Below are positions 41,153-61,919 of a stretch of 64,000 bases of DNA, in pieces (positions within the stretch are counted from its first letter, which is position 1; every line of letters begins with the position of its first letter). The position numbers were made by a program, and so were the translations under genes. The stretch is from Anaeromyxobacter dehalogenans 2CP-1 (GTDB lineage: Bacteria > Myxococcota > Myxococcia > Myxococcales > Anaeromyxobacteraceae): assembly GCF_000022145.1 (NCBI RefSeq), contig NC_011891.1, forward strand, positions 1,996,001 to 2,060,000. Direction: 5' to 3'. The notes beneath the pieces were generated by a model. It did not search any database and was not told the origin of the DNA. It saw nothing but the letters and a program-made list of their open reading frames with translations.

Positions 41153-41337
41153 ACGCCTCCGCCGCACCCGGGGAAGGCTCCATTAAGCAGGACGATACGG
41201 CCTGTCGAGGTGTGCCACCCCGTGAAGGACGCGCTCAGCGTGAACGGATCGACCCGCACGGAGCGTCATCGCGGCCCGGGAGGGATCGCGCAGCGCGTCG
41301 AGGCCGCGCGCGCCGCCGCCTCCCGACCCCGCCGCCT

Positions 41338-41412
41338 CCCGACCCAGAGTCGTTTCGCCCCGACCCAGAGTCGTTGGGACGGCCGAGCTTCGCCCCGACC
41401 CAGAGTCGTTGG
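41338..41412 (-). repeat. Three dispersed repeats in tandem
   Basis: Reverse-orientation copies CCCGACCCAGAGTCGTTTCG (41338-41357), CCCGACCCAGAGTCGTTGGG (41359-41378) and the same again at 41395-41413. The last two belong to a roughly 36-bp direct repeat continuing into GAC[G/C]GCCGAG. Located between livG's start and the 3' end of the hemerythrin gene. Confidence 0.85.
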
Positions 41413-41427
41413 GACCGCCGAGGCGGC

Positions 41428-43724: not shown

Positions 43725-43934
43725 CGGCGCATCCCGACCCTTCGACTCCGGGCGCTCATCCCGACCCTTCGACTCCGAGCCGCTCATCCCGAGCGTAGGC
43801 CGTGCCCCCTCGACTCCGGGCCGCGTCGCGGCCCTACGCTCGGGGTGAGCGGACGTGACGGGGCACGGCCGGAGTCGAGGGACGCTCGGGGTGAGCGGAC
43901 GTGACGGGGCACGGCCGGAGTCGAGGGACGGGCT
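43725..43934. repeat. GAGCGTAGG/CTACGCTC-family repeat block
   Basis: Inverted and direct copies of TTCGACTCCGG / CTACGCTCGGGGTGAGCGG. A roughly 45-bp unit containing GCTCGGGGTGAGCGGACGTG and GGGGCACGGCCGGAGTCGAG is present twice in tandem (about 43842-43887 and 43889-43931). The block fills the gap between the convergent activator and aceF genes and can form long hairpins. Confidence 0.8.
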
Positions 43935-45593
43935 CTAGAGCACGATCCGCCGCATATCCCCGAGGAGCTGGGCCAGGTACGTCGTGATCCGCGCCGCCAG
44001 CGCGCCGTCGATGACGCGGTGGTCGTAGGAGAGCGACAGCGGCAGCATCAGCCGGGGCTGGAACTGCGTGCCGTCCCACACCGGGCGCATGGCGCTCCGC
44101 GATACGCCCAGGATGGCGACCTCCGGCGCGTTGATGATGGGCGTGAAGGCGGTGCCGCCGATGCCGCCCAGGCTGGAGATGGAGAAGCAGCCGCCCTGCA
44201 CGTCGGCGGGGGAGAGCTTCCCGTCGCGGGCCTTCGCGGCGAGCTCGCCCAGCTCCTTCGCGAGCTGCAGGACGCCCTTCTGATCGGCGTCCTTCAGCAC
44301 CGGGACCACCAGCCCCTGCGGCGTGTCGGCCGCGAAGCCGACGTGGAAGTAGCGCTTCAGCACCAGCTCGTCGCCGTCGAGCGAGGCGTTCAGCTCGGGG
44401 AACCGCCTCATGGCGGCGACGCAGGCCTTCACCAGGAACGCGAGCAGCGTCACCTTGACGCCCTGCTTCTCGTGCTCGCGGTTCAGCTCGACGCGGAAGC
44501 GCTCCAGCTCGGTGATGTCCGCCTCGTCGAACTGGGTGACGTGCGGGATCATCACCCAGTTCCGCGCCAGGTTGGTCCGCGACAGCTTGCGGATGCGCGA
44601 GAGCGGCTGGCGCTCGACCGGGCCGAAGCGGGTGAAGTCCACCTTGGGCCAGGGCGCGAGGTCGAGCGCGCCGCCCCCGCCGCCGCCGGACTCGAGCCGG
44701 GCGAGCGAGGCCTTCACGAACTTCTGCACGTCGTCCTGCAGGATGCGGCCGCGCGGGCCGCTCCCCTCGACGCGGCCGAGGTTCACGCCCAGCTCGCGGG
44801 CGAGCTTGCGGACCGAGGGCGAGGCGTGCGGCACCTGGCCCTGGGCACCGGTCTCCGGCGCGACCGGCGGCGCAGCGGGGGAGGGCGCCGGCGGCGGCGC
44901 GGCGGCCTTCGCCGCGGGGGCCGCGGCGGGCTGGGACGGGGCCGGCGCGGCGGCGGTCGTCGCGGCGGCGGGCGCGACCGCGTCGAGGATCGCCACCAGC
45001 GATCCCTCGCTCACCTTGTCCCCGGCCTTCAGCGCCACCTCGCGGATCGTGCCGGCCGCGGGCGCGGGCACGTCGAGCGTGGCCTTCTCCGACTCGAGCG
45101 TGGCGAGCGGCGCGTCGGCCTCGACCCGATCGCCCGGCTTCACCAGCACCTCGATGACCGGGACGTCCTTGAAGTCGCCGATGTTCGGGACCTTCACCTC
45201 CACCGTGCGCGGCGCGCCCGCCGGCGAGGCCGCGGCCGGAGGCGCGGAGGGCGCAGCCGGGGCAGGGGAGGGCGCCGGCGCGGGCGCCGCGGCGGCGGGC
45301 TTCGGGGGCGCGGCCTGCGCGGGCGCCGCGGGCGCCTCCGCCTTCGCCTGCCCGTCCGACGCCTCCAGGGTCACGACCAGCGATCCCTCGCTGACGCGGT
45401 CGCCGACCTTCACCTTCACCTCGCGGATGGTGCCGGCCGCGGGGGCGGGCACGTCGAGCGTGGCCTTGTCCGACTCGAGCGTGACCAGCGGCGCGTCGGC
45501 GTCCACCTGCTCGCCGGGCTTCACCAGCACGTCGATGACCGGGACGTCCTTGTAGTCGCCGATGTTCGGGACCTTGACCTCGATGGTGCGCAT
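43935..45593 (-). CDS. aceF: Pyruvate dehydrogenase E2, dihydrolipoamide acetyltransferase
   Basis: 552 residues. Two lipoyl domains with ESDKATLDVP and ESEKATLDVP (lipoyl-Lys), each followed by an Ala/Pro linker; a peripheral-subunit-binding domain (PSVRKLARELGVNLGRVEGS); and the catalytic domain with SLSYDHRVIDGALAARI (active-site His and Asp). Transfers acetyl groups from E1 to CoA. ATG at 45593, 17 nt after aceE's stop. Only E1 and E2 are here; E3 (lpd) must lie elsewhere. Confidence 0.95.
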   Translation of the reverse strand: MRTIEVKVPNIGDYKDVPVIDVLVKPGEQVDADAPLVTLESDKATLDVPAPAAGTIREVKVKVGDRVSEGSLVVTLEASDGQAKAEAPAAPAQAAPPKPAAAAPAPAPSPAPAAPSAPPAAASPAGAPRTVEVKVPNIGDFKDVPVIEVLVKPGDRVEADAPLATLESEKATLDVPAPAAGTIREVALKAGDKVSEGSLVAILDAVAPAAATTAAAPAPSQPAAAPAAKAAAPPPAPSPAAPPVAPETGAQGQVPHASPSVRKLARELGVNLGRVEGSGPRGRILQDDVQKFVKASLARLESGGGGGGALDLAPWPKVDFTRFGPVERQPLSRIRKLSRTNLARNWVMIPHVTQFDEADITELERFRVELNREHEKQGVKVTLLAFLVKACVAAMRRFPELNASLDGDELVLKRYFHVGFAADTPQGLVVPVLKDADQKGVLQLAKELGELAAKARDGKLSPADVQGGCFSISSLGGIGGTAFTPIINAPEVAILGVSRSAMRPVWDGTQFQPRLMLPLSLSYDHRVIDGALAARITTYLAQLLGDMRRIVL

Positions 45594-45610
45594 GTCCTCG
45601 TTCTCGCGGT

Positions 45611-48268
45611 CTAGACGGTCCAGGGGGCGGGCTTCGCGGGGTCGATGCCGTACTTCTTCAGCGCCTCGGCGACCTTCGCGGCGGGCACGGTGCCCTCGTC
45701 GGCGAGCGCCTTCAGCGCGGCGATCGCCACGTGGTGCCGGTCCACCTCGAAGAAGCCGCGCAGCTTCTCGCGCGTGTCGGAGCGGCCGAAGCCGTCGGTG
45801 CCGAGCACGTGGTAGGCGCGCGGCACCCACGGGCGGATCTGCTCGGCGAAGGTGCGGACGTAGTCGGTCGCGGCGACGACCGGCCCCTGCGTGCCGCCGA
45901 GGCAGGTCTCCACGTGCGAGCGGCGGGGCGCGTCCTCGGGGTGGAGCCGGTTGTGGCGCGACACCGCCATGCCGTCGCGCGCCAGCTCGGTGAAGCTCGG
46001 GCAGCTCCACACGTCCGCGTCCACGCCCCACTGGCTCTTCAGCAGGTCGGCCGCGGCGATCACCTCGCGGAGGATGGCCCCGGAGCCGAGGAGCTGCACC
46101 CGCGGCGCCTTGCCCTTCGCCTTCGCGCCCTGCTTGAACAGGTACATGCCCTTCACGATGTCCTGCTCCGCGCCCTCCGGCATGCCCGGGTGCGCGTAGT
46201 TCTCGTTGAGGACGGTGACGTACCAGTACGCGTCCTCCTGCTCCGCCAGCATGCGGCGCAGGCCGTCGTGCACGATCACCGCCACCTCGTACGAGAACGT
46301 CGGATCGTAGGAGCGGCAGTTCGGGATCACCGACGAGAGCACGTGCGAGTGCCCGTCCTCGTGCTGGAGCCCCTCGCCGTTCAGCGTGGTGCGCCCGGAG
46401 GTGCCGCCGACGAGGAAGCCGCGGCAGCGCATGTCGCCGGCCGCCCAGGCGAAGTCGCCGACGCGCTGGAAGCCGAACATCGAATAGAACAGGTAGAACG
46501 GGATCATCGGCTCGCCGTGCGTGGCGTACGCGGACGCGGCGGCGATCCAGTCGCACATCGCGCCGGCCTCGGTGATGCCCTCCTGCAGCACCTGCCCCTG
46601 CTTGTCCTCGCGGTAGTAGGCGAGCTTGTCCGCGTCCTCGGGCGTGTAGAGCTGGCCGACGTGGCTCCAGATCCCGAGCTGCCGGTACATGCCCTCCATG
46701 CCGAACGTGCGCCCCTCGTCCGGCACGATGGGCACCACGCGCTTCCCGATGGCCTTGTCGCGCGCGAGGAGCGTCATGATCTGCACGAGCGCCATGGTGG
46801 TGGACAGCTCGCGGTCCTCGCTGCTCTTCAGGAGCCGGTCGAACGCGGAGAGCGGCGGTACCTCCAGCGGCTTCGCCTTGGCGCGGCGCCGCGGCCGGTC
46901 GCCGCCGAGGTCCTGCCGGCGCGCCTTCAGGTACTCGAGCTCCTTCGAGCCCTCCGGCAGCTTCAGGAACGGCACCTTCTCGAGCTGGTCGTCCGGCACC
47001 GGCAGGTCGAAGCGGTCGCGGAAGCGCCGGATGGCGTCCACCGCGATCTTCTTCTGCTGGTGCGCGATGTTCATGGCCTCGCCGGCCTCGCCCATGCCGT
47101 AGCCCTTGATGGTCTTCGCGAGGATCACGGTGGGCTGGCCGGTGTGCTTCACCGCCGCGTCGTAGGCCGCGTAGACCTTGAACGGATCGTGCCCGCCGCG
47201 GTTCAGCCGCCAGACGTCCTCGTCGGACAGCTCGGAGACCATGGCCTTCAGCTCGGGCGAGTTGAAGAAGTGCTCGCGGACGAACGCGCCGTTGCGCGAC
47301 TTGTAGAGCTGGTACTCGCCGTCCACCACCTCCATCATCCGGCGGCGCAGGATCCCCTCCGAGTCCTTCGCGAACAGCGGATCCCAGTGGCGGCCCCAGA
47401 TCACCTTGATGACGTTCCAGCCGGCGCCGCGGAACGTGCCCTCCAGCTCCTGGATGATCTTGCCGTTGCCGCGGACCGGCCCGTCGAGCCGCTGCAGGTT
47501 GCAGTTCACCACGAAGATGAGGTTGTCGAGCTTCTCGCGGCCGGCGCGGTCGATGGCGCCCATGGCCTCCGGCTCGTCCATCTCGCCGTCGCCGCAGAAC
47601 GCCCAGACCTTGCGGTCGGCGGTGTCGGCGATGCCGCGGTCGTGCAGGTACCGCATGAAGCGGGCCTGGTAGATGGCCATGTGCGGCCCGAGGCCCATCG
47701 ACACGGTGGGGAACTGCCAGAAGTCCGGCATGAGCCAGGGGTGCGGGTACGAGGACAGGCCCTTGCCGTCCACCTCCTGGCGGAAGTTCTGGAGCTGCTC
47801 CTCGCTGAGCAGGCCGAGCAGGAACGCGCGCGCGTAGATGCCGGGCGCGGAGTGGCCCTGGATGTAGACGAGGTCGCCGCCGCGGTCCGGGGTCCAGGCC
47901 CGCCAGAAGTGGTTGTAGCCGACGTCGTAGAGCGTCGCGGCCGAGGCGAAGCTGGCGATGTGGCCGCCGACGTTGGTGTGCTTGTTCGCCCGCACCACCA
48001 TCGCCATCGCGTTCCAGCGGAGGTAGTGGCGGATGGTCTGCTCGATGGCGAAGTCGCCCGGGTAGCGCGGCTGCTTCTCCACCGGGATGGTGTTCACGTA
48101 GGCGGTGTTGGCCGAGAACGGCAGGTACGCGCCGGAGCGGCGGGCGCGGTCGATGAGCTGCTCGATGAGGAAGTGCGCGCGGTCCGTGCCCTCGCGCTGG
48201 AGCACGCCCTCGAGGGCGTCCAGCCACTCGCGCGTCTCCTGCGGATCGAGGTCGGGGAGCTTGTCCAT
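45611..48268 (-). CDS. aceE: Pyruvate dehydrogenase E1, homodimeric
   Basis: 885 residues, full length for the AceE type. TPP-binding segment WAFCGDGEMDEPEAMGAI with the NCNLQRLDGPVRGNG stretch. Typical start (YVNTIPVEKQPRYPGDFAIE) and end. Decarboxylates pyruvate and reductively acetylates E2 lipoyl groups. First gene of aceEF; the promoter must lie in 48269-48485, shared with the divergent lipoprotein gene. Confidence 0.95.
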   Translation of the reverse strand: MDKLPDLDPQETREWLDALEGVLQREGTDRAHFLIEQLIDRARRSGAYLPFSANTAYVNTIPVEKQPRYPGDFAIEQTIRHYLRWNAMAMVVRANKHTNVGGHIASFASAATLYDVGYNHFWRAWTPDRGGDLVYIQGHSAPGIYARAFLLGLLSEEQLQNFRQEVDGKGLSSYPHPWLMPDFWQFPTVSMGLGPHMAIYQARFMRYLHDRGIADTADRKVWAFCGDGEMDEPEAMGAIDRAGREKLDNLIFVVNCNLQRLDGPVRGNGKIIQELEGTFRGAGWNVIKVIWGRHWDPLFAKDSEGILRRRMMEVVDGEYQLYKSRNGAFVREHFFNSPELKAMVSELSDEDVWRLNRGGHDPFKVYAAYDAAVKHTGQPTVILAKTIKGYGMGEAGEAMNIAHQQKKIAVDAIRRFRDRFDLPVPDDQLEKVPFLKLPEGSKELEYLKARRQDLGGDRPRRRAKAKPLEVPPLSAFDRLLKSSEDRELSTTMALVQIMTLLARDKAIGKRVVPIVPDEGRTFGMEGMYRQLGIWSHVGQLYTPEDADKLAYYREDKQGQVLQEGITEAGAMCDWIAAASAYATHGEPMIPFYLFYSMFGFQRVGDFAWAAGDMRCRGFLVGGTSGRTTLNGEGLQHEDGHSHVLSSVIPNCRSYDPTFSYEVAVIVHDGLRRMLAEQEDAYWYVTVLNENYAHPGMPEGAEQDIVKGMYLFKQGAKAKGKAPRVQLLGSGAILREVIAAADLLKSQWGVDADVWSCPSFTELARDGMAVSRHNRLHPEDAPRRSHVETCLGGTQGPVVAATDYVRTFAEQIRPWVPRAYHVLGTDGFGRSDTREKLRGFFEVDRHHVAIAALKALADEGTVPAAKVAEALKKYGIDPAKPAPWTV

Positions 48269-48485
48269 GTCGGTCCCTGGGCGTTGGTTGCGCGCTACTC
48301 CTACTGGGGAGGGGTCCCGGATTCAAACGAACCCTTGGACCCCGAGAGGACGGTGCGCACCGGCGCGCAACCGTGCCGCACCGCGCCACGCACGCGACAC
48401 CAAACGTCGTTGTGACCCCCGCTCGAACATCGGACACTGGAACGCGGGGGCGCGCGCAGGGGAGCGCGGCGCGAGGAGGGGGGCC

Positions 48486-50405
48486 ATGCGGACGCGTCCG
48501 ATCGGACTTGCGGCTGGAGTGGTGCTCGCCTTCCTGGCCGGGCACGGGTGCAGCAGCGGCGGCGGGGACGGGCCCGCGCCGGCGGTGTGCGAGGGAGCGC
48601 CGGATCCAGGGACGGCCGGGCCAGGGGACGTGGAGGGCTGGTTCCCGCTCGCGCCGGGCTGGAGCTGGAGCTACCGGATCGCCGGGCAGCCCGTCACGCG
48701 CCCCGCGGACCTGCGCATCGAGGTCGGGGGCGCGCGGAGCTACCGCGGGTTCGCCGCCACCGAGCTGCGCGAGCTGGATCCGACCACCGGCGCCGACCTC
48801 GCGGGCGGGACGGCGCTCGTCGCCTCCGCGCAGGCCGGCCTGGTCGAGCTCGGTGACGGGACCGCGACGGACCCGACGCCGTCCACCTACGACCTCCGCT
48901 ACCCCGTCACCATGGGTGGAGCCTGGTCCGAGCGCTGCACCGGTCTCGATTACGGCGAGGACCTGGACGAGGACGGGAAGCACGAGACGCTCGACCTCGC
49001 GCTCGCGGGGCAGGTGCTCGGCCTCGAGGACGTGACCGTGCCCGCGGGGACGTTCGCGGGCGCCGCGCACGTCCGGCTCACGCTGACGCTCACGCTCTAC
49101 CCGACGCGCGCCGGGCTCCAGCCGGTCACGGCCACCGCCTGGCAGGAGACCTGGTACGCCCGCGGCGTCGGCATCGTGCGCCGGAGCGACGGCGGCGAGC
49201 TCTCGCCCACCACCGCGTACGAGCTGGTGGGCTGGTCCGGCCCGGCCGGCGGCGGCGGGCTCGCCGAGCTGACCCGGCTCGTGGTCCCGCCGCCCAGCTC
49301 GGATCCGTACGTGAGCCCGTGGCGCGTGGTCCCGGCCCGCGGCGGCTCCTCCCGCGCGATGGTGCTGGACCTCGCCTGGCGCGACGGCCCGGTGCGGCTG
49401 GTGGGCCGCTTCGTGGACGGCGGCGCCGCCGGCGCGCCGGTCGAGGTGGTGCCGCAGTGGCCGGCCACCAGCGCGCTCCTCCCGTGGCACATGGCCACGC
49501 AGGTCGCGCCGGGGCCGGACCGGCACCTGGTCGCGTTCGCGGCGGAGCCGGCGCAGGCGCCGGGCACGGCGGAGATCCGGGCGGCACGGGTGACGGCGGA
49601 CGGGGTCGCGCTGGACGGGCCCTCCGGGTTCCTGGTGGCGCAGTGCGCGAGCTGGACGGCGTACGCGGTCGCGGCCTCGCGCGCGGGCGACGGATACCTC
49701 GTGACCTGGGGCTGCAGCGCGCCGGCGGGCGGCGTGTACGCGGCCACGGTCGGCGCGGACGGCACCGTGGGCGCGCCGACGTTCCTCGGCGAGGGGCCGG
49801 TCCAGTTCCTCCAGGCCGCCGGACGCGGGGCCGAGCACCTCGTGGTCTGGGGCCGTGGGTCGTCGGCCGACACGGAGGTGGTGGGCGTGCGGGTGAGCGC
49901 CGCGGGCACCTCGCTCGACGCGGCGCCGGTCCGGCTGGTCGCGGATCAGGACTTCAAGGTCCCGGGCGACCTCGCCTGCGGCGACGCCGCGTGCCTGCTC
50001 ACCTGGCGGCGGGCGGCGATGCCGTACGGCTCCTACGAGCTCGCCGCGGTGCGCCTCGCGCCGGGGGCGCTGGCGGAGCGCGCCGCGGTCCGGCTGGCCG
50101 GCCCGATCGACTCCGAGACCGAGCCGCTCGCCGTGCCGGTCGGCGACCAGTTCGCGATCACCTGGGGCGACCCGCAGATCTACCCGCTGCCGTGGGGCCA
50201 GCCGGGGCCGGCGGTCCGGGTGGCGTGGGCCGGAGCCGACCTGAGCCTCTCGCCGCCGGACGGGATCCCGGTCCTCTACCACTGGGACTTCTACGACGCG
50301 CTCGGCAACGCGGCGCTCCTCTCGGCCGGCGCCGCCGACGCGTGGGTGGCGTACGAGTGGATCCCGGCCTACCCCGAGCTGGACGCGGTGCACTGGATCC
50401 GCTGA
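48486..50405 (+). CDS. Large lipoprotein, unknown function
   Basis: 639 residues. Lipoprotein signal with GHGC lipobox region (GVVLAFLAGHGCSSGGG). The N-terminal third (WFPLAPGWSWSYRIAG, VTVPAGTFAGAAHVRLTL, WYARGVGIVRR) is the type seen in lipoproteins built around a beta-barrel or lipocalin-like fold. The rest resembles a beta-propeller repeated with VAASRAGDGYLVTW and LLTWRRA blades. Stands between the aceEF promoter region and a convergent frameshifted gene 4 bp away. Confidence 0.7.
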   Translation: MRTRPIGLAAGVVLAFLAGHGCSSGGGDGPAPAVCEGAPDPGTAGPGDVEGWFPLAPGWSWSYRIAGQPVTRPADLRIEVGGARSYRGFAATELRELDPTTGADLAGGTALVASAQAGLVELGDGTATDPTPSTYDLRYPVTMGGAWSERCTGLDYGEDLDEDGKHETLDLALAGQVLGLEDVTVPAGTFAGAAHVRLTLTLTLYPTRAGLQPVTATAWQETWYARGVGIVRRSDGGELSPTTAYELVGWSGPAGGGGLAELTRLVVPPPSSDPYVSPWRVVPARGGSSRAMVLDLAWRDGPVRLVGRFVDGGAAGAPVEVVPQWPATSALLPWHMATQVAPGPDRHLVAFAAEPAQAPGTAEIRAARVTADGVALDGPSGFLVAQCASWTAYAVAASRAGDGYLVTWGCSAPAGGVYAATVGADGTVGAPTFLGEGPVQFLQAAGRGAEHLVVWGRGSSADTEVVGVRVSAAGTSLDAAPVRLVADQDFKVPGDLACGDAACLLTWRRAAMPYGSYELAAVRLAPGALAERAAVRLAGPIDSETEPLAVPVGDQFAITWGDPQIYPLPWGQPGPAVRVAWAGADLSLSPPDGIPVLYHWDFYDALGNAALLSAGAADAWVAYEWIPAYPELDAVHWIR

Positions 50406-50409
50406 GCGG

Positions 50410-51302
50410 TCACCAGCGCCGCGCCCAGGCCGGCGCAGGGCGAGGGTCGGGGCGAAGGGCGGAGAGGTCGTGCGCGCCGCGGAGGGCGAGCCCCGCGGCG
50501 CGCCCGTCGCGCAGCTCGAGCCGCGCGTCGTGCGTGGCGACGAGCAGCCGCCCGCGCGCGTCCCAGTCGGCCCAGGCCGCCTCCGGCAGGGCGACCGTGC
50601 GCCGCCCCAGCTCGACCGAGTAGGCTGGGCTGCGCCCCTCGATGCGCGGCGCGCGCGTGTCGAGCCCCCGGTCCTCGAGCGCCAGCCGCGCGGCGCGCGC
50701 GTGTCGAGCCCCCGGTCCTCGAGCGCCAGCCGCGCGCCGCCGCCGGGGCGCGGCTTCACCAGCCTGGCGCGCCGCCGCTCGTCCCAGGGATCGCCGCGCG
50801 GATCCCGCGGCTCGCCCCGCGGGTCCTCCTCCCATCCGCGCCGGCGCTCGGCTGCGTATTGCACGACGGGCGTCGGCACGAGCCCGCCGCGCGCGCGGAG
50901 CGGCGACGCGTCGCCCGCGTCCGCCGGCGCGACCGCGCCGACCTCGCCCGCTGCCGCGAAGTGGTGCCCGCGGCTCCAGGTCCCGCCCTCGCGCCACGCG
51001 GCGAGCGCGAACAGCCAGGGCGCCTTCGACACGAGGAGGTACGCGGTCCACGGGTGCTCGCCGAGGAACTCCGGCGACGACGCCGACGCGGCGAACGCGG
51101 AGAGCAGGGCGCCGTCCGGCGAGAGATCGCAGCGGCGCGGGTAGAGCGTCCCGCGGAACCACGCGCCCGGCTCGAGCGCGTCCTGCTCCAGGTGCCAGCG
51201 CACGAGGTGCCACCAGCCGCCGGGCCCGCGGCGGAAGACGAGCGCCACCGGGGCCGCGGTGGCGACCTGCGCGTAGAGGCGCGGAGGTGGGTGCGTCTGC
51301 AT
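50410..51302 (-). pseudogene. Hypothetical gene frameshifted by a 44-bp tandem duplication
   Basis: The N-terminal part (QTHPPPRLYAQVATAAPVAL, WWHLVRWHLEQDALEPGAWF) runs in one frame from ATG 51302 (GTG 51305 also possible). After the repeat at 50644-50736 sensible coding continues in another frame (RSPAYSVELGRRTVALPEAA, LLVATHDARLELRDG) to TGA at 50410-50412. Removing one 44-bp unit joins the two into 282 residues. As it stands the first frame reads into Arg-rich nonsense. No family recognised; probably a cytoplasmic beta-rich protein. Could be a pseudogene, a reversible slip-strand switch, or a sequencing or assembly error. Confidence 0.75.
50644..50736. repeat. Perfect 44-bp tandem duplication
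   Basis: Bases 50644-50692 equal 50688-50736, so the 44-bp unit (containing GTGTCGAGCCCCCGGTCCTC) is present 2.1 times with no mismatch. 44 is not a multiple of three; the duplication shifts the frame of the surrounding gene. Confidence 0.95.
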
Positions 51303-51485
51303 CACTTATCGTGTATCACGTGCGGCGCCCGCGCGCAGCGGGCCGGGCCGGGCGGGGAGCGGCGCCACGATCCGGCGCGTTTGCGGTGTGTGAATGTGGC
51401 CGGCGCACGCGTCCCGCGGTCCGTGGAGTGGTGGCGAGCACGGACGCAGCGTAGCGTCGGTCCTCGCACGCACGGGAGGGGTCGC

Positions 51486-61724: not shown

Positions 61725-61919
61725 TTCGACAGGCTCAGGGCGAGCGGAAGACCCCGGTCGCTCATCCCGACCCTTCGACTCCGTTCGCTCATCCCGACCC
61801 TTCGACTCCGGCGAGCCGTCGGCTCGCCTACGCTCAGGGTGAGCGCGCATGGCCGCGCGGAGTCGAGGGACGCTCAGGGTGAGCGGACTTCTCCGCTGGG
61901 CCGCGCGGAGTCGAGGGAC
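61725..61919. repeat. CTACGCTCAGGGTGAGCG-family repeat block
   Basis: Contains TTCGACAGGCTCAGGGCGAG, two copies of CTCATCCCGACCCTTCGACT, and GCCTACGCTCAGGGTGAGCG with a second GACGCTCAGGGTGAGCGG. It fills the gap between the convergent Gre and phosphoesterase genes; the phosphoesterase stop codon lies at its edge. Confidence 0.8.

Follow-up and report, generated by a model that had tools for sequence, protein, structure and literature searches.

A 44-bp tandem duplication bounded by microhomology frameshifts an orphan gene of Anaeromyxobacter dehalogenans 2CP-1

The stretch of 64,000 nucleotides analyzed here (hereafter the window; bases 1996001-2060000 of the closed, single-contig chromosome of A. 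dehalogenans 2CP-1, 5,029,329 bases) carries an orphan gene that is interrupted by a perfect tandem duplication of 44 bp (Table 1). The gene lies tail-to-tail with a lipoprotein-like gene on the plus strand that ends at 50405. The window also holds genes for a dehydrogenase E1 and E2, which, judging by their sequences, are presumably of the pyruvate dehydrogenase type; the E2 gene occupies a minus-strand frame and has its own ATG at 45593. A tRNA scan around the duplication returned no hits.

Table 1. Positions of the interrupted gene, the duplicated units and associated features, numbered from the first base of the window.
Feature	Position	Strand	Basis or context
Frameshifted orphan gene, 282 codons with one unit skipped	ATG 51302, stop ends 50410	-	Orthologs with open frames
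Tandem unit copy 1, 44 bp	50644..50687	.	Self-match at lag 44, TRF, shuffles
Tandem unit copy 2, 44 bp, identical to copy 1	50688..50731	.	Self-match, TRF, shuffles
Boundary microhomology GCGCG (gene strand CGCGC), identical to bases 1-5 of each unit	50732..50736	.	
Shifted reading frame, 2,455 codons without a stop in all	43935..51302	-	ORF reading
Two-copy perfect tandem duplication, 46 bp	43836-43930		Intergenic, immediately 3' of the dehydrogenase E2 gene

A preliminary description had reported a perfect 44-bp duplication at this site, and its coordinates proved exact: at a lag of 44, bases 50644-50692 match 50688-50736 without a difference over 49 bases, so that the array comprises two full units plus 5 bases, or 93 bp in all. 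TRF, which tolerates mismatches beyond 50736, placed 2.2 copies with a 44-bp period at 50644-50740. Two occurrences of the unit in the 64-kb window compare with zero in 100 dinucleotide shuffles. Among exact tandem self-matches in the window with periods of 20-600, the array ties for the greatest length with the 46-bp duplication at 43836, while the third-ranked match is 27 bp long.

Since 44 cannot be divided evenly by 3, the additional unit throws the orphan gene out of frame. That coding continues on either side of it in different frames, and that removal of one unit restores 282 codons, had likewise been put forward, and both points were borne out: the 282-residue ortholog from a related genome of 5,013,479 bases (G002) aligns with 2CP-1 as two segments whose frames differ, one covering residues 1-208 and the other residues 174-282, and the sequence with one unit removed reads uninterrupted from the ATG to the stop over 849 bases. 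The intact ortholog matched no family of Pfam or NCBIfam at E ≤ 1 and gave no significant match among PDB sequences (best E 0.88), and its structure, predicted from three sequences, is poor (mean pLDDT 45), with only parts of approximately residues 181-260 reaching a pLDDT of 60-84, as beta strands. Four of nine genomes of the genus carry the gene (2CP-1 included), with one clear homolog outside the genus among 195 genomes of the phylum.

Four further orthologs were found (in G002, in Anaeromyxobacter sp. PSR-1, i. e., G001, and in G003 and G161), all of which have uninterrupted frames. In G002 and PSR-1, the gene has one unit and 282 codons and can be aligned base for base with that of 2CP-1, the comparison comprising one genome per species. 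The absence of the second unit from these two genomes, together with the uninterrupted frames of the more distant orthologs in G003 and G161, indicates that the single-unit form is ancestral and that the extra unit was gained in the lineage leading to 2CP-1.

Several observations suggest that this gain was recent, as the preliminary description had supposed from the identity of the copies. When codons of the 2CP-1 gene are read across one unit, dN/dS amounts to 0.22 against G002 and 0.19 against PSR-1 and does not rise downstream of the duplication; a search for a second lesion in the gene read in this way found none. Codon changes unique to 2CP-1 comprise 20 synonymous and 10 non-synonymous ones. 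The ratio of about 0.2 and the lack of any other lesion argue for a recent break in a gene that was under purifying selection until not long ago. Between the two copies, zero differences were seen where about 10 neutral ones would be expected had the duplication been as old as the lineage split (P ~5e-5, assuming that neither copy is under constraint and that both evolve at the synonymous rate of this single gene), which places a rough upper bound, derived from a single gene, at approximately 30 % of the 2CP-1 lineage's branch.

The ends of the unit point to how it may have arisen. The second copy is an exact head-to-tail repeat that is absent from the putative ancestral allele, where each end of the unit carries the same short sequence: CGCGC (gene strand) is present at both ends in PSR-1 and in the one-unit form reconstructed for 2CP-1, whereas the allele of G002 has it at one end and a one-base change at the other. 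At least 5 bp would be shared at a random boundary with a chance of 1.2 %. Unit ends of this kind are usually explained by slippage during replication or by template switching at microhomology, and the 5-bp direct repeat bounding the unit points to one of these processes here. During replication of this G+C-rich stretch, the two CGCGC repeats, 44 bp apart, could have allowed slippage or template switching, by which the intervening 44 bp would have been duplicated; the 44-base insertion shifts the frame after approximately codon 205, and the C-terminal ~77 residues, and with them presumably the function of the protein, are lost. We thus favor an ordinary, recent, lineage-specific loss-of-function mutation as the best explanation, with a probability of roughly 0.84. 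A perfect tandem repeat of 49 bp should lose one unit at some rate, so that physical reversion to the one-unit form is expected, presumably without being selected as a switch, and one-unit cells may coexist with two-unit cells in the strain.

Perfect repeats with units of 20-600 bp were further surveyed in 2.4 Mb of the 2CP-1 genome (10 kb masked). Two simple two-copy perfect duplications of at least 20 bp were recovered, namely the 44-bp and the 46-bp one, the remainder being arrays of shorter units and a few clustered arrays. The 46-bp duplication has 3 bp common to its ends and lies 6.8 kb from the 44-bp array; since G002 has one copy of its unit, it is probably lineage-specific, too. The nearness of the two may be due to chance, two loci being too few to tell. 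The tandem array at 41313-41422 differs between genomes: 2CP-1 has two copies of a 35-bp unit (97 %) and G002, at the corresponding position, 2.8 copies of a 21-bp unit, a difference that marks a locally unstable site. Related intergenic elements, partly palindromic and with CCCTTCGACTCCG / CTCATCCCGA motifs, are found at 43730-43930 and 61750-61919; these elements are scattered and few (7 and 16 exact motif matches in 2.4 Mb). Outside the window, a long array of the 15-bp unit AACGGCATCAACACG extends over bases 2360256-2360840 of the 2CP-1 chromosome (G000:C1); the unit length is a multiple of 3, and translation could yield repeated pentapeptides, for example NGINT.

Of the competing explanations, an artefact of assembly, cloning, or sequencing, with the strain in reality carrying one unit, would account for the second unit being found in a single genome only, and extreme G+C content and palindromic runs are indeed hard to sequence. 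However, the array measures just 93 bp and can be spanned by one Sanger or long read, which makes its expansion during assembly unlikely; moreover, the genome is one closed contig, and the intergenic 46-bp duplication nearby is an event of the same kind. We therefore consider an artefact unlikely.

Phase variation, as proposed in the preliminary description, would make the gene a contingency locus that is on at one or four units, off at two or three, and maintained as such by selection. A perfect 49-bp repeat with a unit not divisible by 3, within an otherwise intact and constrained gene, is what such a locus could look like, and there are precedents in duplications of pneumococcal capsule genes reported as phase-variable (Waite et al. 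2001, 2003, as cited in PMC4022640) and in promoter tandem repeats of Mycobacterium tuberculosis that vary within isogenic populations (PMC12817950). However, all four other orthologs are intact, the one-unit alleles of the relatives contain no repeat tract but merely 4-5 bp of boundary homology, and neither an ancestral nor a recurrent tract is seen, both G002 and PSR-1 being single-unit. A set of similar gene-interrupting duplications was sought in the 2.4 Mb and was not found; furthermore, the gene is a lone orphan for which searches of Pfam, NCBIfam, and PDB sequences gave no sign of a surface role. With no two-unit relative among those compared and no set of such loci in the 2.4 Mb, the proposal is not supported, and we regard a selected contingency locus as very improbable. 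About as improbable is a genuine on/off switch of the 2CP-1 lineage in which a long unit (44 bp) that arose at microhomology is gained and lost and thereby controls an orphan protein of a free-living soil bacterium.

The frame entered after the duplication deserves a comment, as it runs on past the gene: it lies on the strand opposite the lipoprotein-like gene, crosses the E1 gene in a frame other than that of E1, and coincides with the reading frame of the E2 gene from the ATG of the latter. In the other five frames of the same stretch, open runs of 400-945 codons are found, some of which correspond to real genes. At 74 % G+C, a long stop-free frame is to be expected, and the open frame, 2,455 codons from the ATG (2,456 codons at 43935-51305) and ending within the E2 gene, is best read as a curiosity that is mostly non-coding and not a product. 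That the two-unit gene is functional, by programmed ribosomal frameshifting or as a useful fusion (e. g., a readthrough protein joined to the dehydrogenase E2, as the length of the open frame and its in-frame meeting with E2 might invite), was rejected because the relatives lack the duplication, and is extremely unlikely given that the frame opposes one gene on the other strand and crosses another in the wrong frame, that long open non-coding frames are usual at this G+C content, and that selection has had too little time since the duplication to build anything from it.

The recent loss-of-function mutation favored here is a clear case of a gene observed shortly after its inactivation by a duplication at microhomology, and, as the ancestral allele is kept in relatives, its reversion could be measured. 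It also illustrates that, in a genome of 74 % G+C, a shifted frame may stay open for kilobases, and gene callers can be misled by it. Both microhomology duplications and phase variation based on duplications are already known kinds of events.

Duplications in pneumococcal capsule genes reportedly arise spontaneously, inactivate the gene, and are revertible in principle by losing one copy. The 2CP-1 case resembles them in being a short exact tandem duplication within an open reading frame, inactivating and in principle revertible. Waite et al. (2001, 2003, according to PMC4022640) reported phase variation through such tandem duplications for the type 3 locus, cap8E, and tts, whereas the two-unit allele of 2CP-1 comes from a single genome. 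Microhomology-mediated tandem duplications (MTDs), for example in ssp1 of fission yeast, are unstable and revertible and have been described as adaptive (reviewed in PMC13207564); they share with the present case the two-copy structure, the few bases of boundary microhomology, and the location within a coding region, but concern a eukaryote and an adaptive setting, whereas the 2CP-1 duplication represents one bacterial case that is not known to be under selection. In icaC of Staphylococcus aureus, a 4-nt tandem repeat expands and contracts by slipped-strand mispairing (PMC4117637), and, as in 2CP-1, a change in the number of units shifts the frame; unlike this 4-nt tract, the corresponding site in the relatives of 2CP-1 has no repeat tract from which to start. 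Finally, copy number varies within isogenic populations in the promoter tandem repeats of M. tuberculosis (PMC12817950), and the 2CP-1 gene resembles such phase-variable loci in that losing one 44-bp unit would restore the frame.
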